Part shown: one piece after another, positions 8,335 to 25,934 of the stretch
Position numbering within the stretch: position 1 is the stretch's first letter
Layout of the letters: the number at the start of each line of letters is the position of its first letter
Assembly (NCBI RefSeq): GCF_019402445.1
Contig: NZ_SRZM01000032.1
Span: 1-25,934, forward strand
DNA: 25,934 nucleotides
Direction: 5' to 3'
From: Brachyspira pilosicoli
GTDB taxonomy: Bacteria; Spirochaetota; Brachyspiria; Brachyspirales; Brachyspiraceae
Notes under the pieces: model-generated
What the model saw: only the letters and a program-made list of their open reading frames with translations
Database searches by the model: none
What the model was told of the DNA's origin: nothing
Translations under genes and position numbers: made by a program

Positions 8335-10626
8335 TTAATTGTCATTTACTGATTTTTCGTTATTACTTTCTTCGCCCTTAGCTACAATAGCAGGCTTTTC
8401 TTCCACTTCTTCTTTTTTAGGCTCAACTACTCTAAGTGAATTAAGAAGAGTATAAGCAACAGCTACATTCTCTTCGCCTGACTCTGACATAACTCTAAAA
8501 GACATAAGCGAAGAATATCTGCTTCTGCCATAAGAATATCTAAATCCTATTTCTACTGAAGCTCCGGCATCTATTGTAACAACTTCTTTATCAAGTACAA
8601 TAGCAGCCAATGCCTGAGATAAATCAGTTTTAATTCTAACATTATTAAGTCTTCTAGAAGTTCTATTAACTATAGTAAGTACTCCTGTTCTGTTTCTTTC
8701 ATCAAGTTTCACAGTAACATTGAATGGGTTTTCAGAATATTTCTCCTCTATTCTAGAAACTATTGAAGCATTAATATTAGCCCATTCTTTTATAGTATTA
8801 GGACCTCTAAACTTAGACCATAACATTCTTGATACATCATGGAAGAATATACCTCTTATTCTGCTGCTTCTATTAAATTTAGCCTCAGATTCATAAACTC
8901 TTCTCATATATTCAAGCTCAGGTCTCAAACTACCATCTTGAAGCCTATTATCAATCATATTACCAACTAAAACATTATACTCACCAGACAAATATCTAGG
9001 CCAAGCGGTAAGCATACCAACATGCTGAGGACGGCTCGCCTCATATATCATAACAGCATCATAATCAATACCCGCATCAAAGAACATATAAGGATCTTGT
9101 CCATGTTCTTGTCCATGATTCCAACCTAAAGTAAATGCCCATAATTTTTTCTTTATTCCAGAATCTTTTATTGCTTTTATAATAAGTGATTCTTTATGAG
9201 CTCTATACCATCTCCATTTTAATCCTATTTCCTTTCTTCCTCTATTAACAGCAAGCCAACGCATACGAGCAGCTTTGTTCATAGTAGACCAATTAGCAGG
9301 AGTATAAACTCCAGTAAGTTCTACCATCTCATCAACTAACTCATAACCATCAACTTCGCCAGTTCTAATAAAGTCCAAACCAATATATGATATATTAGGA
9401 TTAGCATCATATCTTTTTAATATGTCTATAATATCCTGCACTCTCTTAGGGTCACCCAAAGAAATATGCCTACTTTCAACTAAGCTTTTAGTGCTGGAAT
9501 TATATCCAACAGAAACTTCGTATCCGCCCTTTCTGTGCCCGCCACCAGCTGCAAAATAACTCATAACATAAGCACCAAGCTCAACATTACCCTTAGATTT
9601 TGAAGCAGCTAGGTTCTCAACATTCTTAATCATAGCAGGTGCCCAAGGTTTATCAGGCGTAATACCGCCAGTCCAACCAGTAGTCTGTCCTCCTATTACC
9701 CACAAAGTATCACATTTCATATAGCGAACCCAATCGTATATGGCATTATAATCCTCTGTTAGTGCTCCTGTTTCTAAATTAGGAATTTTTTTAGTAGTTA
9801 AATCTATAGCATATTCTAATGTTGTTATCTTTTTAGTCTCTCTAGCAGGCGGAGATTGTCTTCCCTTTACAGTAAAATCTTTTGTATAACCATAAACTCC
9901 GCTTTTCGTCTGTACAAGCACAACCGCCTGATATTCGCCCAAATCGCCTCCAAATGGATGTAAATAAGTTGCTTTATACTCTGCATTTTTTACTTTAAAT
10001 ACATTAATAGGATATCTATCATCAACATTCTTTCTAACACTTTTATCTTTCTTATATCTTACATAAACACTTAAATTTTCTACTTTGTCCTCTGTATAAA
10101 TAGAAGCATTTATAACCACAGGCTCATATCTAAATACTGATATCTTAGATAAATCTATAGAAACACGCGGAGCTTCTCTTTTCTTAGAATTAACAATAGC
10201 ACCTTCTATAGCCTTGCTTAATCTATCTGATGTTTTATCAGTAGTATTTCCAGAAAATACCATGGCAGGAAGTACATTAGGATTCGGCATTCCGCTACTC
10301 ATCTCCTCATCACTCAATAATAATTCCTGACTAAAAAGGTCTATATCTTCTCTCACGCTTATATCTTCATCTACATAAAAATCATCTAAATCTACAGCTA
10401 AATTATATTCATTAAATATAGGTTTACTATGAACTAAAGTAAGAGAATCTGGATTATACATATCTATTCTATGCGTTTTTCTATTATTACCATCTTCTTC
10501 TATCGCATATTGTAAATTATTATTATAATTAATTATTGTAAGCCTTTCTCCTATACCAAAAGTAAGAAGTATAAGAGAAGTTGCTATAAGTAACAGAATT
10601 GTAGTTGCTATTATGCTTTTTTTCAT
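8335..10626 (-). CDS. Exported, membrane-anchored TIM-barrel (glycoside-hydrolase-like) protein flanked by Ig-like domains
   Basis: The 763-residue protein has one hydrophobic anchor (about residues 5-24) and an acidic low-complexity stretch (75-115). A beta-sandwich-like domain (about 155-255) follows, then a large alpha/beta region (265-600), a second beta-sandwich (633-732) and a charged Glu/Lys tail. The alpha/beta region has repeated strand-like pieces such as Y-I-G-L-D-F-I-R (Asp418), W-A-F-T-L-G-W-N-H-G and A-V-M-I-Y-E-A (Glu529). These look like barrel strands ending in acidic residues, as in GH10-like or GH-A clan hydrolases. The substrate is unknown, and a polysaccharide or glycoconjugate is only a guess. 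It lies 32 bases downstream of the Xer gene with GGAT as a weak ribosome site, and is followed by a strong terminator. I do not recognise a named family, so the hydrolase call is structural inference. Confidence 0.6.
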   Translation of the reverse strand: MKKSIIATTILLLIATSLILLTFGIGERLTIINYNNNLQYAIEEDGNNRKTHRIDMYNPDSLTLVHSKPIFNEYNLAVDLDDFYVDEDISVREDIDLFSQELLLSDEEMSSGMPNPNVLPAMVFSGNTTDKTSDRLSKAIEGAIVNSKKREAPRVSIDLSKISVFRYEPVVINASIYTEDKVENLSVYVRYKKDKSVRKNVDDRYPINVFKVKNAEYKATYLHPFGGDLGEYQAVVLVQTKSGVYGYTKDFTVKGRQSPPARETKKITTLEYAIDLTTKKIPNLETGALTEDYNAIYDWVRYMKCDTLWVIGGQTTGWTGGITPDKPWAPAMIKNVENLAASKSKGNVELGAYVMSYFAAGGGHRKGGYEVSVGYNSSTKSLVESRHISLGDPKRVQDIIDILKRYDANPNISYIGLDFIRTGEVDGYELVDEMVELTGVYTPANWSTMNKAARMRWLAVNRGRKEIGLKWRWYRAHKESLIIKAIKDSGIKKKLWAFTLGWNHGQEHGQDPYMFFDAGIDYDAVMIYEASRPQHVGMLTAWPRYLSGEYNVLVGNMIDNRLQDGSLRPELEYMRRVYESEAKFNRSSRIRGIFFHDVSRMLWSKFRGPNTIKEWANINASIVSRIEEKYSENPFNVTVKLDERNRTGVLTIVNRTSRRLNNVRIKTDLSQALAAIVLDKEVVTIDAGASVEIGFRYSYGRSRYSSLMSFRVMSESGEENVAVAYTLLNSLRVVEPKKEEVEEKPAIVAKGEESNNEKSVNDN

Positions 10627-17449: not shown

Positions 17450-18238
17450 TTACATATTCTCTTCTATGTATTTTCTTAGTTTATACAATGCTATTAATAC
17501 ATTTTTTCTGTTAATATTATTCTTAGTTGAAAATAAAACCTTAATATCATTAATCTCAGAAAGTTCAATATAATCTTCAGAGGAAATTTTATCATATAAA
17601 TAACTTATAGATTTTAATAATCCATCATCATAATCTTTAAAATTAAAATATTCATTAGGTATATTCCATACCAAAGCTTCAATAAGCTCATAATTAAACT
17701 CATTTAACTCTTTTATCTCGCCATTGAAACTTTGAAATATGTATTTGAATATTCTAATTAAATTGATAAAATTATCTTTACATTCATATTCTTTTTTATC
17801 AAAATTCTTATTGTCTAATTTGGGATAATATATATTATTCTCTCCGTCAGAAGAAGTAATTAAAGCACCTTCTATCTTTTTATTCTCTTCTTCAACTTTA
17901 AAACTTGGTCTTAATACAATCTTTTCTTTATCATAAACAATAATAAGAGAATCTAATATATCATTATATTCTATATTTTCTTTTTCTAATATCTTTGAAA
18001 TATCTTTTTTAAAAACTCTAGTATCTTTGCTATTACTATCAGCTATTAAAAATAAATTAAGATACTCCATATAACTAACATTAGTATTGTTTCTTTTAGC
18101 CCCAGTGGCAATTATAGATACATTATTGTTATTTATAATATTAGTTACAAAATCTAAAGCTTTATCAATTTTATATCTTGGATAAACGGTGGTATTACCC
18201 ACCCATTTATTTATATAATCATATATGTCGTTATTCAT
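17450..18238 (-). CDS. Degenerate OAS/CD-NTase-like nucleotidyltransferase-fold protein at the end of the che operon
   Basis: This 262-residue protein would normally be called hypothetical. Its segments follow, in order, those of OAS/CD-NTase (SMODS-like) nucleotidyltransferases. T-G-A-K-R-N-N-T-N-V (45-54) stands for Q-G-S-Y-x-N-N-T-N-V. I-V-L-R-P-S-F (107-113) stands for the V-D-x-V-P-A-F strand. I-Y-Y-P-K-L-D (136-142), then N-F-I-N-L-I-R-I-F-K (156-165), then E-L-I-E-A-L-V-W-N-I-P-N-E-Y-F (184-198) complete the skeleton. The metal-binding D-x-D is replaced by Tyr59 and Asn61, and the third Asp by Val108, so catalysis looks lost. It starts 7 bases after cheB with no Shine-Dalgarno sequence, suggesting translational coupling. 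No signal peptide or membrane segment is present. The fold call rests on recalled motif order, not a search. A role in chemotaxis is inferred from position only. Confidence 0.55.
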   Translation of the reverse strand: MNNDIYDYINKWVGNTTVYPRYKIDKALDFVTNIINNNNVSIIATGAKRNNTNVSYMEYLNLFLIADSNSKDTRVFKKDISKILEKENIEYNDILDSLIIVYDKEKIVLRPSFKVEEENKKIEGALITSSDGENNIYYPKLDNKNFDKKEYECKDNFINLIRIFKYIFQSFNGEIKELNEFNYELIEALVWNIPNEYFNFKDYDDGLLKSISYLYDKISSEDYIELSEINDIKVLFSTKNNINRKNVLIALYKLRKYIEENM

Positions 18239-18245
18239 ATAATTT

Positions 18246-19379
18246 TTATGCTTTTTTAAGAGCAGCAGCTAATATTCTATCAAGCGGAAGTATCTCATCT
18301 ACACCGCCTCTAGCAATAGCTTCTCTTGGCATACCAAAAACAGTACAAGTTTCTTCGTTTTGAGCAATATTATAAGCACCAGCATCTTTCATTTCTTTCA
18401 TACCATTAGCACCATCATCACCCATTCCAGTAAGTATGATACCTATAGCTTTATTTTTAGCATATACAGCACCGCTTCTAAAAAGTACATCTACAGAAGG
18501 CTTATGTCTAGTAACAGGTTCACCATCTACAACTTCAATATAATATTTTCCGTTTTTAACTTTTATCATAGTATGCTTTCCGCCTCTTGCAAGTACAGCC
18601 TGACCGCGTCCTATACTCATACCATCTTCAGATTCAAAAACTTCTATTTTTAATACAGTATTTAATCTCCTAGCAAATGAAGTAGTAAAATGTTCAGGCA
18701 TGTGCTGAGCTATTACTATAGGAGGAGCAGAAGGAGTAACATTTTTTAAACATTCTATCAAAGCCTCAGTACCGCCTGTAGAAGAGCCTATAAGTATAAT
18801 TTTATCCATAGCAACTTCTCTAGAAGGTACAAGTGGGAGTATAATATCAGCATTATTTTTTGGATAAACTTTAAATCCAGAAGTTTTAGGAGCTTCTACC
18901 ACAACTCTATTATGAGTAATATTAGTAGTACTCTCTGTAGGCATAGCCACACCATGCTTTTTATAAAACTTAGCTCTGTTGTTGTAAGCATTTTTTATCT
19001 TTTCAACTAAATCTGTAGCTAATTCTTCAACGCCGCCCCTTACATTAGCAGAAGGCTTAATAACATAATCAAAAGCACCAATATTTAAAGCATCTAATGC
19101 CAACTCTCTATGTTTATCAAGCAAAGAACTAAACATTATTACAGGAATAGGATTATTAATCATAAGTTTTTTAAGATAAGTAATACCATCCATCTCAGGC
19201 ATTTCTATATCTAAAGTAATAATATCAGGTTTTATAGTTTTTAATTTAGCTTCTGCAAGTATGGGGTTAGCAGCAGTGGCAACCATTTCCAAATCAGGGT
19301 CAGAATTAACAATTTTTGTAAGTAGTTGTCTTATTAATGCACTATCATCAATAGATAAAACTTTAATTTTATTAGCCAT
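18246..19379 (-). CDS. cheB: Chemotaxis protein-glutamate methylesterase/deamidase CheB
   Basis: The 377-residue protein has an N-terminal receiver domain (S-I-D-D-S, phospho-acceptor Asp57 in L-D-I-E-M-P, lysine in V-I-K-P-S), a linker (about 125-190), and a C-terminal methylesterase domain. The catalytic residues are Ser200 in I-G-S-S-T-G-G-T, His226 in I-A-Q-H-M-P and Asp322 in T-G-M-G-D-D-G, all present. Once phosphorylated by CheA it removes methyl groups from receptor glutamates and deamidates glutamines. This undoes CheR action and resets the receptors. It lies 17 bases after cheD with AAGGAAAA as ribosome site. Confidence 0.97.
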   Translation of the reverse strand: MANKIKVLSIDDSALIRQLLTKIVNSDPDLEMVATAANPILAEAKLKTIKPDIITLDIEMPEMDGITYLKKLMINNPIPVIMFSSLLDKHRELALDALNIGAFDYVIKPSANVRGGVEELATDLVEKIKNAYNNRAKFYKKHGVAMPTESTTNITHNRVVVEAPKTSGFKVYPKNNADIILPLVPSREVAMDKIILIGSSTGGTEALIECLKNVTPSAPPIVIAQHMPEHFTTSFARRLNTVLKIEVFESEDGMSIGRGQAVLARGGKHTMIKVKNGKYYIEVVDGEPVTRHKPSVDVLFRSGAVYAKNKAIGIILTGMGDDGANGMKEMKDAGAYNIAQNEETCTVFGMPREAIARGGVDEILPLDRILAAALKKA

Positions 19380-19396: not shown

Positions 19397-19990
19397 TTAA
19401 AATAATGTAATATCAGATTTCTCTTCAATTTTTTGTTGTAAGTTTTTAGAATACTTAATTTCTTGTTCAGCAGAGAACTCTTTAGTTTTACCTTCAATCT
19501 TCTTCATAAGCACTCTATTTTCAGTATTGAAAAAAAACACTTTTCTAGGCCAAGAGCCCCCAACATCCTCACTAATAATAGGGATATTTTCATCAGCTAA
19601 AAATTTTCTAGCGAATCTAATATTTTTATCTGGTACTTGAAGCACATTACTAGTCATTCCAGTTAAAACGTGTCCGCCTCCAAATATTTTAGCAGTAAGA
19701 TTAGCCTTTTTTCCTCCAAGTTTAATTATTTCGTTTATTAGCACCTCCATAGCATAAAGACCATATCTAGTATAATTATAATCATCTTCAGGATTCTCCC
19801 ATTCCTTCATCTCCGGGAGCATAAAGTGATTCATCCCTCCAAATTTCAAATTATTCTCAAATAAACAAACCGAAATACAACTTCCTAAAACTGTTTTTAT
19901 TACCGCAGGCTGTCTAGAGGCATAATAACCGCCTATATATATTGTTATTCTTTTAAAATTGCTGTTGGCAGCTGATGGAAAATCTAACAT
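19397..19990 (-). CDS. cheD: Chemoreceptor glutamine deamidase CheD
   Basis: The 197-residue protein carries the CheD core: V-L-G-S-C-I-S-V-C-L with catalytic Cys38, G-G-M-N-H-F-M-L-P with His55, I-F-G-G-G-H later, and D-V-G-G-S-W-P-R-K-V near the end of the fold. CheD deamidates receptor glutamines and in many bacteria pairs with the CheC phosphatase, which is not encoded nearby. Beyond the usual CheD end there is a Lys/Glu-rich helical extension (about 165-190) finishing in S-D-I-T-L-F. That tail nearly repeats the C-terminus of the MCP-like protein at the start of the same operon. The ribosome site is an unusual GGGG (complement of about 19993-19997). It lies 16 bases after cheR. Confidence 0.95.
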   Translation of the reverse strand: MLDFPSAANSNFKRITIYIGGYYASRQPAVIKTVLGSCISVCLFENNLKFGGMNHFMLPEMKEWENPEDDYNYTRYGLYAMEVLINEIIKLGGKKANLTAKIFGGGHVLTGMTSNVLQVPDKNIRFARKFLADENIPIISEDVGGSWPRKVFFFNTENRVLMKKIEGKTKEFSAEQEIKYSKNLQQKIEEKSDITLF

Positions 19991-20006: not shown

Positions 20007-20852
20007 TTAAATCTTTTTATAGATATTGCTAGAAATATATTTAAACAAATCTGAAATACCAAACAATGTTTCAGAATGCCCTATAAATACATAACTATCA
20101 TCTTTCATATATCTATAAAATTTATTAAATAATTCCTTTTGAAACTCTTTATCAAAATAAATTATTACATTTCTACAAAATATTAAATCAAACTTAGTAT
20201 GTATATCAAAATCTTCATCTTTAAAATTAAGCTGTCTAAAAGATATACATTTTTGCAAAATATTTTTTACTTTATAAAGACCTGCATTATTTCCAGTGCC
20301 TTTAAGAAAATATTTTTTTAAAGTATTAGTTTGAATAGTTTCTACTGTTTCCTCTTTATATATACCAGCATAAGCATGTGCAAGCACATTAGTATCTATA
20401 TCGCTTGCTAAAATTTTTATATCATAATGACTAAATCTCTCTCCAAAATAATCATGAAGTGTCATAGCAATAGTATAAGGCTCCTCACCTGTAGAACAAG
20501 CAGCAGACCATATTCTTAAATTATTAACCTTTCCTTCTTTATAACTTTTTTCCCAATTTGGAAGAAAAGTACTTTTCATATATTCAAAATGTTTATTTTC
20601 TCTAAAGAAGTCGGTTTTATTTGTAGTAACAGCATTAATAAAATTGGTAACCTCTTCATCAGGAGCACCTTTCAAATAGTCTATATATTCTTTAAAAGAA
20701 GACATGTTTAAAGCTCTAATTCTTTTACTTATTCTAGAAGTAACTAAAGCTCTTTTATGTTCAGACATTTGTATACGAGTTTTATCATAAATAATTCTAA
20801 CTAATTCATTAAACTCACTGTCTGTTAAAGGTGCAAGATTTAATTCACTCAT
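20007..20852 (-). CDS. cheR: Chemotaxis protein methyltransferase CheR
   Basis: The 281-residue protein has a helical N-terminal domain (about 10-75) and a Rossmann-type SAM-dependent methyltransferase domain. The latter shows T-D-F-F-R-E-N, the SAM loop I-W-S-A-A-C-S-T-G-E-E-P-Y, L-A-S-D-I-D-T-N-V-L and F-D-L-I-F-C-R-N-V-I-I-Y-F-D. It methylates conserved glutamates on chemoreceptors. There is no TPR or other C-terminal addition. It follows cheW by 10 bases, with GAGG ahead of the ATG. Motifs are complete and the assignment is secure. Confidence 0.97.
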   Translation of the reverse strand: MSELNLAPLTDSEFNELVRIIYDKTRIQMSEHKRALVTSRISKRIRALNMSSFKEYIDYLKGAPDEEVTNFINAVTTNKTDFFRENKHFEYMKSTFLPNWEKSYKEGKVNNLRIWSAACSTGEEPYTIAMTLHDYFGERFSHYDIKILASDIDTNVLAHAYAGIYKEETVETIQTNTLKKYFLKGTGNNAGLYKVKNILQKCISFRQLNFKDEDFDIHTKFDLIFCRNVIIYFDKEFQKELFNKFYRYMKDDSYVFIGHSETLFGISDLFKYISSNIYKKI

Positions 20853-20862
20853 ATAAAAAACC

Positions 20863-21396
20863 TCAAACTATGGTCTTATTTATATCATCATTAGATTTTA
20901 CTATATCCTCTATAGGAAGAACCATAATAATCTTATTTTCAAGTCTAATAACATTAGATATCTGTAAACCGCTTACATTAGCAATAGGAGTAGCAGTCAT
21001 CTGACTTTCATAAACAGTAATAACATCAGAAACCATATCAGCAAGTATGCCAAATCTTCTATTGGAAGTAGATATTACTATAATAACATCATTTTCTATA
21101 GAACGGTCATCTCTTCTTTCAAGCCCGAAACGCATTCTTATATCAACTATATGTAAAATATTACCCCTCAAATTAATAAGCCCTCTCATATACTTAGGAC
21201 TTCCAGGTACAGGAGTAATAGTAGTAACACCAACTATACCTTCTATACTTAGCACATCAAGAGCATATTCTTCGTTATCTATCTTAAAAACAAGAAATTG
21301 CTGACTTGGCTCTGTGGAAGCATTCTCTTCTGCCCCTATACCCACACCGCCAATCTGTGCTATTTCACTAGCATTAATTTTTTGATTATCCAACAT
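20863..21396 (-). CDS. cheW: Chemotaxis coupling protein CheW
   Basis: The 177-residue protein consists of one CheW domain (about 30-165): F-L-V-F-K-I-D-N-E-E-Y-A-L-D, P-V-P-G-S-P-K-Y-M-R-G-L-I-N-L-R-G and H-I-V-D-I-R are the family marks. It links receptor tips to CheA in the signalling array. The first 28 residues are a polar, Ala/Glu-rich extension longer than in E. coli CheW. It starts 14 bases after cheA with AAGGA as ribosome site. Confidence 0.96.
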   Translation of the reverse strand: MLDNQKINASEIAQIGGVGIGAEENASTEPSQQFLVFKIDNEEYALDVLSIEGIVGVTTITPVPGSPKYMRGLINLRGNILHIVDIRMRFGLERRDDRSIENDVIIVISTSNRRFGILADMVSDVITVYESQMTATPIANVSGLQISNVIRLENKIIMVLPIEDIVKSNDDINKTIV

Positions 21397-21410: not shown

Positions 21411-23516
21411 TTATTTAACGCCATTATTAACTTTATTCTGTAAAGATATATTAACAAGTCCCTGTATATCTATAATAAGAGCTATTCTACCATCTCCAAG
21501 TATAGTACCTCCAGCAATTCCTGCATGCTTGCTGAAAGCAGAATCTAAAGACTTAATAACAACCTGCTGCTGATCAAGTAACTCATCTACAAATATAGCA
21601 CATTTTCTATATCCTGCCTCAACAACTACAACAATACCATCATCTATCTCATTAACTTGAGTGTCTATCTCAAATACCTTGTGAAGTCTTATGAGAGGTA
21701 AATATTCATCTCTGATTTTTATCATCTCCCCTTTGCCCTCAAAAGGCTTAACCTGATCGCTTTTTATTTTTATCTGCTCTATGATAGATATTAAAGGCAT
21801 TACATAAATTTGCTCACCTATAGCAAAAGTAATACCCTCTATAATAGCTAAAGTTAAAGGAAGTTTAATAATAAATGTGCTTCCAACTCCCTCAGCACTC
21901 TTTATCTCAATCTTTCCTTTCATCTTTTCAACATTAGCCCTAACAACGTCCATACCAACACCTCTTCCAGATATGTCAGTAACTTTTTCTGCTGTTGATA
22001 AACCTGGGCTAAATATTGTTCTATATATTTCAGCATCAGAGTAATTGCCGTCTTTTGATAATAAGCCTTTCTCTACAGCTTTGTTAAATATTTTTTCTTT
22101 ATTTAAACCATTACCATCATCAGACACCTCTATAACAACATGTCCCTCTTGGTGAGCTGCTGACATTGTAATAGTACCATATTCAGGCTTTCCTCTTGCA
22201 ATTCTCTCTTCTTTAGTTTTTTCTATACCATGGTCCATAGAGTTTCTAATAATATGTTTAAGAGGGTCAGATAACTGCTCTAACATATTTTTGTCTATCT
22301 CTGTAGTTTCACCTTTAAGAACTAATTTTACTTCTTTGTTTAATTCCAAATTAAGGTCTCTCACATATCTATGGAATTGTGTGAATATAGGACCTATAGG
22401 CATCATTCTTATATTCATAACCTCTTCTTGTATTTGTCTTGAGGTTCTGTCCATAGAACTAACTGCTTCTTTTAAGCCATTATCTATGTCTAAGTTTTGT
22501 GTTAGCTGCATTATTCTTGATTGTGCTATAACTAACTCTCCAATCAAGTTCATCAAGCTGTCCAATTTTCTTATATCAACTCTTACAGTAGAAGGAGCCT
22601 GAACCTTAGTTCCTGTAGGTTTAGAAGCAGGAACTGCCTTATTTTCTTTAGACTTATCATCATGAACTTCTTCTTTTTTCTCTTCTTCATGCTTTTCTTC
22701 GGCTTTTTCTTCTACCTTTTCTTCAACAGGTTTAACTTCCTCTTCTTCTTTCTCTTCTATTTTCTCAGTAATATTAATGTCATTATCATCTATAACAAAT
22801 AAAAATATATTTTGAACTTGCTCTATTGTGGAAGAAGTTTCAACATCTAATGAAAATTGAGTGTAACAAGCGTATGGATCTTCTAAATCAGATATAGCAG
22901 GTAAATTACTAATATCTATTTTTAAATTACTAATAGTACCTATAGCTTTAAGGTCATTTAAAAACATAAGAGGGTCTATACCATTGTCAAAAATACTAGG
23001 TTTAAATATCATTTCAATATGAAACATATTATTTGAAGAAGATGCTTTACTTTCTTCTTCTTTAGGTTTTTCTTCTACTTTAGGAGCTTCTTCTTTTTTC
23101 TCTACAGATACAGTACTTATATCATTTCCTTCAGCTATAGCTTTTATTTTAGCTTTTAAGCTTTCTATATTTGTAACACCATCTGCTTCACCTACACCAT
23201 CTACTATATTTTGAAGCATAAGTTTTACAGTGTCTAAGAACTCTAGTAAAACGGTAATCATTTGCGGTGTAACATCCAATTTGCCGCTTCTTACCTTCTC
23301 CAATAAGTTTTCTGCAACATGGTTTAGCTCACTCATAGTAGTGAAACCAACAGTACCAGCAGAAGATTTTAAAGTATGGGCACTTCTAAATATTTTATTT
23401 AAAAGGTCTTCATCACTTTTATTATCCTCGAGCAAAACTAAATCGTTTTCAAGCCCTTCAACTATCTCATTAGCCTCGCTCAAAAATATCGAAATAAATT
23501 CATCACTATCAAACAT
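21411..23516 (-). CDS. cheA: Chemotaxis histidine kinase CheA
   Basis: The 701-residue protein has the full CheA plan. P1 (Hpt) carries phospho-acceptor His47 in R-S-A-H-T-L-K-S-S. After a linker, a P2-like regulator-binding domain (about 163-250) follows. A highly acidic Glu/Lys linker (about 253-310) leads to the P3 dimerisation helices (I-R-K-L-D-S-L-M-N-L-I-G-E-L). The P4 ATPase shows H-I-I-R-N-S-M-D-H-G-I-E, D-D-G-N-G-L and G-R-G-V-G-M-D-V-V. P5 is CheW-like and ends near the C-terminus. It phosphorylates CheY and CheB in response to receptor state. AGAGG precedes the ATG. All catalytic motifs are present. Confidence 0.98.
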   Translation of the reverse strand: MFDSDEFISIFLSEANEIVEGLENDLVLLEDNKSDEDLLNKIFRSAHTLKSSAGTVGFTTMSELNHVAENLLEKVRSGKLDVTPQMITVLLEFLDTVKLMLQNIVDGVGEADGVTNIESLKAKIKAIAEGNDISTVSVEKKEEAPKVEEKPKEEESKASSSNNMFHIEMIFKPSIFDNGIDPLMFLNDLKAIGTISNLKIDISNLPAISDLEDPYACYTQFSLDVETSSTIEQVQNIFLFVIDDNDINITEKIEEKEEEEVKPVEEKVEEKAEEKHEEEKKEEVHDDKSKENKAVPASKPTGTKVQAPSTVRVDIRKLDSLMNLIGELVIAQSRIMQLTQNLDIDNGLKEAVSSMDRTSRQIQEEVMNIRMMPIGPIFTQFHRYVRDLNLELNKEVKLVLKGETTEIDKNMLEQLSDPLKHIIRNSMDHGIEKTKEERIARGKPEYGTITMSAAHQEGHVVIEVSDDGNGLNKEKIFNKAVEKGLLSKDGNYSDAEIYRTIFSPGLSTAEKVTDISGRGVGMDVVRANVEKMKGKIEIKSAEGVGSTFIIKLPLTLAIIEGITFAIGEQIYVMPLISIIEQIKIKSDQVKPFEGKGEMIKIRDEYLPLIRLHKVFEIDTQVNEIDDGIVVVVEAGYRKCAIFVDELLDQQQVVIKSLDSAFSKHAGIAGGTILGDGRIALIIDIQGLVNISLQNKVNNGVK

Positions 23517-23561: not shown

Positions 23562-23930
23562 TTAATTTAAAAAACGTTTAACAACATCTAAAAGCTGTGT
23601 AGGGTTGAAAGGTTTTACTAACCAACCGCTAGCTCCTGCTGCTTTACCTTCCATCTTCTTATCATCTTGAGATTCTGTTGTAAGCATAAGTATAGGAGTA
23701 TATTTATACTTATCAAATTTTCTAACATTCTTAATAAACTCTATACCATCCATCTTAGGCATATTTAAATCTGTAATGATCATATCAATATTAGAAGCCT
23801 TATTTACAGCTTCTAATCCAGTAGTACCATCATCAGCAGAAATTACATCATAACTCCCCTTCTTTAAAGTATACTCAACAGATGCTCTAGCAGTATTTGA
23901 ATCGTCTACTATTAGTATTGTTTTAGCCAT
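23562..23930 (-). CDS. cheY: Chemotaxis response regulator CheY
   Basis: The 122-residue protein is a single receiver domain: acidic pair Asp9-Asp10 in I-V-D-D-S, phospho-acceptor Asp54 in I-T-D-L-N-M-P, switch Thr in L-T-T-E-S (84-85) and Lys106 in V-K-P-F. Phosphorylated by CheA, it would bind the flagellar switch and change rotation. It sits 45 bases before cheA with AGAGG as ribosome site. There is no output domain. Asn56 and Met57 after the phospho-site match typical CheY proteins. Confidence 0.96.
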   Translation of the reverse strand: MAKTILIVDDSNTARASVEYTLKKGSYDVISADDGTTGLEAVNKASNIDMIITDLNMPKMDGIEFIKNVRKFDKYKYTPILMLTTESQDDKKMEGKAAGASGWLVKPFNPTQLLDVVKRFLN

Positions 23931-23970: not shown

Positions 23971-24219
23971 TTATTTATTTGCCATATTTAAATATTCTGT
24001 AAAAGAATTATCCAACCCTTCTACTATAAGTTTTTTTTGATTTTTATCAAGTTCTTTTTTTATAGAATACAATATTTGTAAGCCAGCCAAATCTAAATGA
24101 CTGCCTTCTGGAAATTTTATTGTTGTATCTTCATTATAATTAGCTGCCTTTATAACATTCTTAAAATATTTGCTCATAGTTCTTATATTAAGATTTTCGT
24201 CTATTTGTATAACAGACAT
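23971..24219 (-). CDS. Single STAS-domain protein of the che operon
   Basis: This 82-residue protein is one small STAS domain like SpoIIAA or MlaB anti-anti-sigma folds, with the core loop S-H-L-D-L-A-G-L-Q-I-L (40-50). The serine phosphorylated in SpoIIAA-type proteins is absent: the D-S-S-G position reads Asp43-Leu44-Ala45-Gly46. Regulation by a serine kinase is therefore unlikely, and a structural or binding role in the chemosensory complex is the better inference. Comparable short STAS proteins occur in chemosensory operons of other bacteria, function mostly unknown. A very strong AGGAGG (complement of 24225-24230) is fused to the stop codon of the preceding gene, implying coupled, efficient translation. 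Confidence 0.8.
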   Translation of the reverse strand: MSVIQIDENLNIRTMSKYFKNVIKAANYNEDTTIKFPEGSHLDLAGLQILYSIKKELDKNQKKLIVEGLDNSFTEYLNMANK

Positions 24220-24228
24220 AAATACCTC

Positions 24229-25934
24229 CTAAAATAATGTAAAATCTCCACTATCCGAACCTTCTTCTATGTTAATATCGACATTTAATGTCTCATCTCC
24301 AGATAAAATACTGTTCGCTATAGTTCTTTCTTTCTTTATAGTATAATAATTTACTATTTCCATATATTTATCACTTTCTATCTTCCAATTCTCTATGTTT
24401 AAAGTCTTATAATATTCATTTTTTTTGTTTCTGATAATATCTCGCATCTTATTAAATACTTCCATTATCTCATTAATCTTCGTTAAGAGAGTCGTTAAAG
24501 AACTTAAATCTATTAAAGTCTTTTCTATTAAATTAAATAATTCTTTGGCATGTGTATCTAAACCCTTAATATTATCTTCTATAATAGCTTTAGACTCTTC
24601 CAAACGTTTGTAAATATTATCCATCATAGATTCTATAAATGAGTTTTCTATAGACTGCTGATTGATATTAAATTTAAACTTATTAATAGCACTAAATATT
24701 GTAGTCTTGATATTTTCAAATTTCTCTAAACAAACATCTACAGTATCTGTAATGTTTGTAGCTATAGATTCTACACTGACCATAGAAAATGTTTGAGAAT
24801 CACTAAATATATCGCTATTTTTCTCTAATTCTATCTTAGCTAAGAAGTTAATAGAGTTAAATGCTTTAGCAATATTTTTTGTTTCTAAAAACATATTCTC
24901 AAGCTCTTCTATTGAATCTATTATACCAGCATTATTATCTGATATTCTATGTTTATTGCTTAAAAATAATTTAAAATTGTCTAAATAAAGCTTAATAAAA
25001 CCTAAATATTCATTAAATATAGAATCTGATACACTAAAAGGAAACTCTGATTTACCTGATTGAGCACCTATCATATATTCAACTATTGTGTTTCTATCTG
25101 ATGATATATCAAGCAAACTCTCTTTTAATCCTTTTAAACTATCATTTATACGAGCATTATTATCTAAAATTTCTTTGTGTATGGATTTAAAATTCTCTAT
25201 TATTAAACTCAAAACAACATCATCAAAAGTAAGCAAATCCAATAATTTATGCTCCAAAGACTCATTGTTTTCCAATTCTGCTGCATTATTTATAGCAACC
25301 ACTTCCTTTCCATAAGCATCTATAAACTTTCTATTCTCTTCTACAATATGTTTTATAGACTCTATTATATGTTCCGTTTGCTGTCTAATAATATCTTCTT
25401 GCGGAAGTATCATCATCACTTCAAATATATAATCATAGCTATTGTCTACTCTTGATATTATATCAGAAATCATATTAGAAAAAGTAGCAAAAGAATTAAC
25501 CATATTATTATGCTCTTTATCTAATTGCTCTCTCATTATATTAAAGCTTCTTCTTTGCATCTCATTAGTTTTTAATATCTCATCTTTAAACTTATCAAAT
25601 TGTACGAATAATTCCTGCCCTATTCTATTCATCTGGTCAGCTTGTTCGTTAGAAGTTTCTGACATTTTTATGATATTTTTAGATATTTCTCCAAAAGCCT
25701 TACCGCCGGAACCATACTTTGAAGCTATAATAATGGCATTAAGAGAATAAACCTTTATCTGATCTGCTAATTTTCTTATCTCTTCTATTGAGTCCATTAC
25801 ATTACTAATAATATTAACGTCTTCAATAATGGAGTTTGATAAAACATCATCTTGATTTATTAATGACTGCATTCTATCAAAAGATTTAAAAAAATCTTCT
25901 TGGTTTTCTTGGAAGTCATTTGAAAAATTTTTTT
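24229..25934 (-). CDS. Soluble MCP-like coiled-coil signalling protein (5' end outside the window)
   Basis: The reading frame stays open through the right edge. The ATG at 25872 has no ribosome site, and 20 further in-frame codons precede it, so the true start is probably upstream. The visible part is almost all helix, with no membrane segment. Counted from that ATG, residues 37-80 resemble a chemoreceptor hairpin tip: I-K-V-Y-S-L-N-A-I-I-I-A followed by G-K-A-F-G-E-I-S-K-N-I stands for the L-L-A-L-N-A-A-I-E-A-A-R and G-F-A-V-V-A-x-E-V pattern. A second, weaker tip-like stretch appears around I-N-F-L-A-K-I-E-L-E. Between them is P-Q-E-D-I-I-R-Q-Q-T-E-H-I, a motif seen in MCP-related proteins. 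It ends in G-D-F-T-L-F. It is likely a cytoplasmic receptor or array-scaffold protein; the ligand is unknown. Confidence 0.7.
   Translation of the reverse strand, partial: KNFSNDFQENQEDFFKSFDRMQSLINQDDVLSNSIIEDVNIISNVMDSIEEIRKLADQIKVYSLNAIIIASKYGSGGKAFGEISKNIIKMSETSNEQADQMNRIGQELFVQFDKFKDEILKTNEMQRRSFNIMREQLDKEHNNMVNSFATFSNMISDIISRVDNSYDYIFEVMMILPQEDIIRQQTEHIIESIKHIVEENRKFIDAYGKEVVAINNAAELENNESLEHKLLDLLTFDDVVLSLIIENFKSIHKEILDNNARINDSLKGLKESLLDISSDRNTIVEYMIGAQSGKSEFPFSVSDSIFNEYLGFIKLYLDNFKLFLSNKHRISDNNAGIIDSIEELENMFLETKNIAKAFNSINFLAKIELEKNSDIFSDSQTFSMVSVESIATNITDTVDVCLEKFENIKTTIFSAINKFKFNINQQSIENSFIESMMDNIYKRLEESKAIIEDNIKGLDTHAKELFNLIEKTLIDLSSLTTLLTKINEIMEVFNKMRDIIRNKKNEYYKTLNIENWKIESDKYMEIVNYYTIKKERTIANSILSGDETLNVDINIEEGSDSGDFTLF

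Follow-up and report, generated by a model that had tools for sequence, protein, structure and literature searches.

The chemotaxis cluster and its last gene

The window, the whole 25,934-nucleotide stretch of Brachyspira pilosicoli DNA analysed here, carries a chemotaxis (che) cluster on its minus strand. At the head of the cluster is a protein resembling MCP signalling proteins (24229..25872; Pfam MCPsignal, E 4.4e-6, below cut-off), whose frame is open to the window edge. It is followed by a small STAS-like protein (23971..24219; STAS, E 6e-4, also below the Pfam cut-off) and then by cheY (23562..23930; Response_reg, E 1.3e-27), cheA (21411..23516; Hpt, H-kinase_dim, HATPase_c and CheW domains), cheW (20863..21396; CheW, E 2.9e-30), cheR (20007..20852; CheR, E 2.2e-61), cheD (19397..19990; CheD, E 1.9e-29) and cheB (18246..19379), which encodes a receiver (Response_reg, E 8.5e-20) joined to a methylesterase (CheB_methylest, E 3.1e-59). 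The last gene of the cluster, at 17450..18238 on the same strand, encodes a protein of 262 amino acids that is a putative pseudo-CD-NTase. Of 23 Brachyspira loci fetched with this last gene, 20 have the STAS-like and MCP-like head in this order, and the other three are cut by contig ends.

Gaps between the genes of the cluster range from 7 to 45 bases, and the smallest (18239..18245, minus strand) is that between the cheB stop codon and the ATG of the last gene. The reading frame is real and its strand is the minus strand, the plus strand being full of stops. The first-pass annotation, made from the sequence, had the gene start 7 bases past cheB without a ribosome binding site of its own; the ATG is indeed there, and no Shine-Dalgarno sequence was seen by eye. 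Downstream, tsaD lies 164 bases away. A search for a terminator after the gene gave none; the sole terminator-like site is on the plus strand and inside it, against a chance expectation of 1.7. Promoter-like sites (65 versus a shuffled mean of 54.8) are near chance and are not used as evidence. With cheB upstream and tsaD downstream, no Cap effector or accessory gene of a CBASS operon lies beside the gene in the window, and none of the che-cluster and downstream neighbours there is a defence gene.

Family membership

From five motifs the protein had been assigned to the OAS/CD-NTase nucleotidyltransferases. All five are present in the translation, in the order claimed, and the assignment is borne out by matches far above chance. 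The PADLOC 'Cyclase' model PDLC00801 matches the protein with E 6.5e-19, and single-sequence phmmer finds solved CdnE chains (7x4f, E 1.6e-8; 7x4c, E 4e-8). The NCBIfam model DS2_2_antiphage gives E 4.3e-8, yet with 32.8 bits against a cut-off of 350. The best-matching stretches are mostly in the C-terminal half of the protein (for 7x4c, from residue 53); assignment of the N-terminal half was confirmed by a profile that included two intact CD-NTases, and by structure. In the predicted fold, the NTase core and C-terminal helical lobe together span the whole length. That the gene is noise is ruled out by the PADLOC and phmmer matches and by the structure.

The check that had been proposed against the SMODS family (PF18144) turned out differently. 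Pfam gave no such match for the window protein at E up to 10 (HMMER filters drop weak matches), so that this check by itself would have missed the family. Two further search rounds added ten more distant full-length proteins of about 300 amino acids, here the sister clade, together with P0053; P0036 had come from the first round. One sister-clade protein, P0044, scores just 13.1 bits against SMODS, for which the curated cut-off is 26.5.

At their source, orthologues are named 'hypothetical protein' (NCBI) or, for some, 'cGAS/DncV-like nucleotidyl...' (UniRef). The window protein is 98% identical to that of genome G006, 87% identical to a named B. pilosicoli record, and 98% identical to a B. 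pilosicoli fragment that covers 51% of it.

Position behind cheB

Among 61 genomes searched, the gene is present in 23 of 26 Brachyspira genomes and in G027, which is of another genus. With a constant site in so many genomes, a lone degraded gene of one assembly is ruled out. A search through 392 genomes of the phylum, in which at most 6 candidates per genome were scored and misses are possible, returned the 23 Brachyspira genomes, G027 and one CD-NTase with an intact Asp pair.

The expectation that the gene always follows cheB held in one direction. It does so in the window and in the 23 other Brachyspira loci fetched, 24 of 24, and in G027; in the other direction, 5 of the 29 family genomes have cheB without the gene (Brachyspira G005, G009 and G021, and G026 and G028 of a third genus). 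The whole che cluster is in view in four of these and cheB only in G005. The gene is thus dispensable for the che cluster. Where the gene is present its position in the cluster is conserved, as befits a component of it: the gap to cheB is 1–8 bases in all 23 Brachyspira loci measured and 10 bases in G027, the sole sister-clade genome where the adjacency was seen, and the site is held down to 21% identity. Downstream, the neighbour depends on the clade: among 21 loci examined, 5 have tsaD and 16 have another gene, at a distance of 110–472 bases. Of the two outcomes named beforehand as counting against the original proposal, the lack of an NTase core or match and orthologues scattered away from che genes, neither was encountered. 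A functional link between the gene and the che operon is likely.

Behind cheB in the five gene-less genomes there were low-complexity matches only, and the conserved blocks of the family were absent among the matches listed. In one of them (L064 of G021) about 1.4 kb after cheB has no open reading frame over 74 amino acids and no recognisable remnant among the matches listed. On a tree of five Che proteins, where G027 is placed on a long branch, presence of the gene requires three changes. This is compatible with one early gain followed by losses, and the count cannot separate gain from loss.

Distances between the proteins track those of CheB (Mantel r 0.90, none of 2000 permutations as high, 22 genomes), with r 0.86 for CheR and 0.79 for CheD; such tracking is also expected under plain vertical inheritance. 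No alignment column separates genomes with the gene from those without it in CheB, CheD, CheR, CheY or STAS. Such columns exist in CheA (one), CheW (one) and the MCP-like protein (two), but they are too few for interpretation. As CheB, CheD and CheR have no separating column, no co-evolving partner surface was found.

G001 has two che-cluster loci (L031 and L050), with gene versions 57% and 53% identical to that of the window; this is probably a mixed bin, contamination being 7%. A second weak match in G022 (35%, four stops) was dismissed as not a gene.

Selective constraint

The median dN/dS of the gene is 0.162 in 10 pairs from 5 pilosicoli-like genomes and 0.124 in 28 pairs from 8 others, while cheB has 0.039 and 0.036 in the same two sets. 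This is 3.4–4.2 times the cheB value, approached only by STAS (0.132 and 0.076) and, in the second set, by CheA (0.102). The gene is under purifying selection but is held more loosely than most of its neighbours. Across 29 Brachyspira sequences 69 positions are invariant, residues 138-149 and 226-238 form conserved segments, and the frame is open in 23 of 24 Brachyspira loci. In the remaining one (L048 of G012, about 9500–10327, che strand) the N-terminal frame is broken, either by sequencing error or by true loss.

A looser rate than that of cheB, a broken frame in one locus and five family genomes that do without the gene are what a decaying CBASS cyclase would give, one trapped behind cheB, without chemotaxis function and on its way out. 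However, dN/dS of 0.12–0.16 is clear constraint. The open frames, the invariant positions and retention of the site behind cheB at such low identity also speak against decay, as do the lack of an adjacent Cap effector in the window and of any recognised remnant in gene-less genomes among the matches listed. Decay is an unlikely explanation, and a gene retained for a role in the che cluster is the reading preferred here.

Loss of the metal site

Alignment to EfCdnE, LpCdnE and ClCdnE shows the window protein to lack the three acidic metal ligands of a catalytic CD-NTase. The first-pass annotation had put Tyr59, Asn61 and Val108 in their place. Tyr59 (for D65) and Asn61 (for D67) are upheld, but Val108 is not: it only borders the site of the third Asp, where two residues are deleted before Leu109 and nothing acidic is left. 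At the first Asp position none of the 47 readable family members has an acidic residue (Tyr in 34, Pro in 10, Phe in 2 and Ala in 1), at the second 12 retain Asp, and the third site is deleted in all 38 aligned proteins. The protein is almost certainly a pseudoenzyme of CdnE descent, and catalysis appears to have been lost before the genera of the family separated. Loss of the catalytic residues in a gene that is yet kept behind cheB probably means a new, non-enzymatic job in steering.

The sister clade, P0053, P0036 and 14 Brachyspira-clade proteins fall on one side of a tree, with seven CD-NTases having an intact Asp pair on the other (support 100/99, with a long-branch warning from the program). 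Of the 10 sister-clade proteins 9 have Pro-x-Asp at the metal site, as does P0053; P0036 has Tyr-x-Asp there, and 32 of 35 Brachyspira-clade sequences have Tyr-x-Asn. The series suggests stepwise loss of catalysis in a defence cyclase. The position behind cheB is shown for the two ends of the series, on either side of the intermediates P0036 and P0053.

The nucleotide pocket

A structural study of CdnE (PMC10442399) supplied the ligand contacts, which were mapped by alignment to 17 positions. Only Lys165 and Glu228 keep the CdnE residue in all 29 Brachyspira sequences. Asn53 is kept in 16 of them and Ser at the GS position (Ser47) in 10, and at lid positions Asp142, Asn240 and Asn241 are invariant. 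Equivalents of Gln51, Arg61, Lys123, Arg275 and Trp277 are gone in all 29, the residue stacking on the donor base is never aromatic, and Ser53 is replaced by Ala in 19. The lid-3 motif of CdnEs making cyclic di-pyrimidines is (R/Q)xW (PMC10442399). It is absent in Brachyspira, where Asn, Asn and then Ile, Leu or Met are found in 29 of 29, while QxW is retained in the eight sister-clade proteins mapped. Conservation of the Brachyspira pocket provides no evidence of ligand binding, being 0.651 compared with 0.675 for the rest of the protein, and 3259 of 5000 random sets were as conserved or more. The original suggestion that the protein was kept to bind a nucleotide is not sustained for Brachyspira, with 2 of 17 contacts fully kept.

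A live sensor in Brachyspira too would bind an NTP or cyclic nucleotide without turnover and pass its state on to the adaptation enzymes. The invariant and partly kept residues are in its favour, and there are precedents for binding: a structure of the CdnD D62N/D64N mutant has ATP bound, by its entry title (6p8j), and MAB21L1, with a partial catalytic triad, binds CTP, but outside the NTase pocket (PMC4897736). Against it are the contacts lost in every sequence, the missing stacker, the frequent loss of Ser53 and a pocket no better conserved than average. Such a sensor is improbable in this genus.

The sister clade is different. In all eight proteins mapped, Ser53, Asp67, Lys201, an aromatic donor-base stacker and the lid-3 Glu, Gln and Trp are present, and Ser220 is found in seven. 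Asp67 is the Mg-B ligand of ClCdnE (PMC10442399). Asn59, a gamma-phosphate contact in LpCdnE, is Ala in all eight, and Arg61 is lost in all eight; Gln51 and Lys123, which are acceptor contacts, are missing too. The pattern would fit one pyrimidine NTP bound without catalysis. For the pocket of this clade, 845 of 5000 random sets were as conserved or more. Only for the sister clade is retention of a nucleotide plausible. Nucleotide sensing is probably ancestral and in Brachyspira lost or changed.

A proposed role in adaptation

There is good support for a conserved pseudo-CD-NTase in the chemotaxis operon. The interpretation favoured here, to which a probability of roughly 0.5 is given, is that a pseudoenzyme of the CdnE lineage has been kept as a non-catalytic accessory in the che cluster, tuning adaptation. 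As the last gene behind cheB of the mcp/STAS/cheYAWRDB cluster, it may be translated in step with CheB. Its product could then bind CheB, or its neighbours CheD or CheR, and so tune receptor demethylation. Binding to CheB is compatible with the gene order and spacing, and action somewhere on the CheB/CheD/CheR arm is a tentative proposal, at slightly less than even odds. The ancestral form, of which the sister clade still gives a view, would have held Mg-pyrimidine-NTP in its donor pocket and could have reported nucleotide state. In Brachyspira, where the donor pocket has largely decayed, the C-terminal helical lobe may serve as a protein-binding surface.

A more specific proposal is that the pseudoenzyme is a nucleotide gauge for chemotaxis. 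The ancestral form would hold Mg-pyrimidine-NTP by its donor site and second Asp without turnover, and its binding to CheB or to partners of CheB would set receptor adaptation to match nucleotide state. This is doubtful; if true, a chemotaxis regulator would have arisen from a signalling enzyme of antiviral defence.

Less probable again is a role independent of chemotaxis that merely uses operon expression; the protein might, for example, mop up cyclic oligonucleotides as a decoy or sponge, or be a regulator left over from defence. The nearest relatives are antiphage cyclases and the sister clade retains pocket remnants, but in the window genome (a 98.5% complete draft) the family model matches nothing else at E up to 10 and SMODS nothing at E up to 1, no defence gene is among the che-cluster and downstream neighbours, and the site behind cheB is fixed. 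That the protein is still an active enzyme whose metal site has been rearranged, perhaps by use of the Glu58 that is next to the lost Asp and invariant in the 29 Brachyspira sequences, is highly improbable, with the first Asp non-acidic in 47 of 47, the third site deleted in 38 of 38, acceptor contacts lost and Thr at the Glu58 position in the sister clade.

Related systems

From the CdnE-type CD-NTases (LpCdnE 7x4f/7x4q/7x4t, ClCdnE 7x4a and EfCdnE 7x4c) the window protein differs in having no metal Asp triad, in the loss of most acceptor and donor contacts, and in being in a che operon with no CBASS effector as neighbour. The likeness of the proposed accessory to MapZ, a PilZ adaptor of Pseudomonas aeruginosa, is one of analogy only: MapZ is linked to a nucleotide and, as an adaptor, binds the receptor-methylation enzyme CheR1 and reduces methylation (PMC6370697). 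It is an unrelated protein, which binds c-di-GMP and acts on CheR1.

Other likenesses are to MAB21L1 and MiD51, though these are eukaryotic, belong to other pathways and are not close in sequence. MiD51 is not known to have catalytic activity. It is a fission receptor built on the cGAS fold (PMC6355003), and MAB21L1 has that fold with a partly conserved catalytic triad and NTase activity that is unproven (PMC4897736).

In both B. pilosicoli and B. hyodysenteriae the che cluster ends at cheB as described in the relevant part of the B. pilosicoli genome paper, where the next gene is unmentioned (PMC2897892). The passage of the B. hyodysenteriae paper listing its che genes likewise does not mention a gene after cheB (PMC2650404). 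CheB is highly expressed according to a proteome paper (PMC4955376), from the main text of which the locus tags expected for the gene, as inferred from numbering, are absent. The pseudo-CD-NTase adds a testable question to what is known of chemotaxis in intestinal spirochaetes, at the point where the published cluster description stops (PMC2897892).

Among the papers listed, titles and the starts of abstracts, with most subscription journals and bioRxiv outside the scope, yielded no such component for CD-NTases in chemotaxis, inactive or pseudo CD-NTases, or the expected locus tags. To our knowledge no chemotaxis-operon component of cGAS/CD-NTase descent is known from earlier work. The window protein would be the first, and would parallel in bacteria the pseudo-cGAS proteins of eukaryotes.

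The CD-NTase with an intact Asp pair from the same phylum (L111 of G111) is a canonical member of the same family and keeps the pair in SDIDV. No che genes were recognised by eye in 3.6 kb around it. At 701-2328 of L111 a small predicted membrane protein precedes it and an HsdM-like gene follows (both named by eye), and this arrangement, in a different family of the phylum, resembles a CBASS locus.
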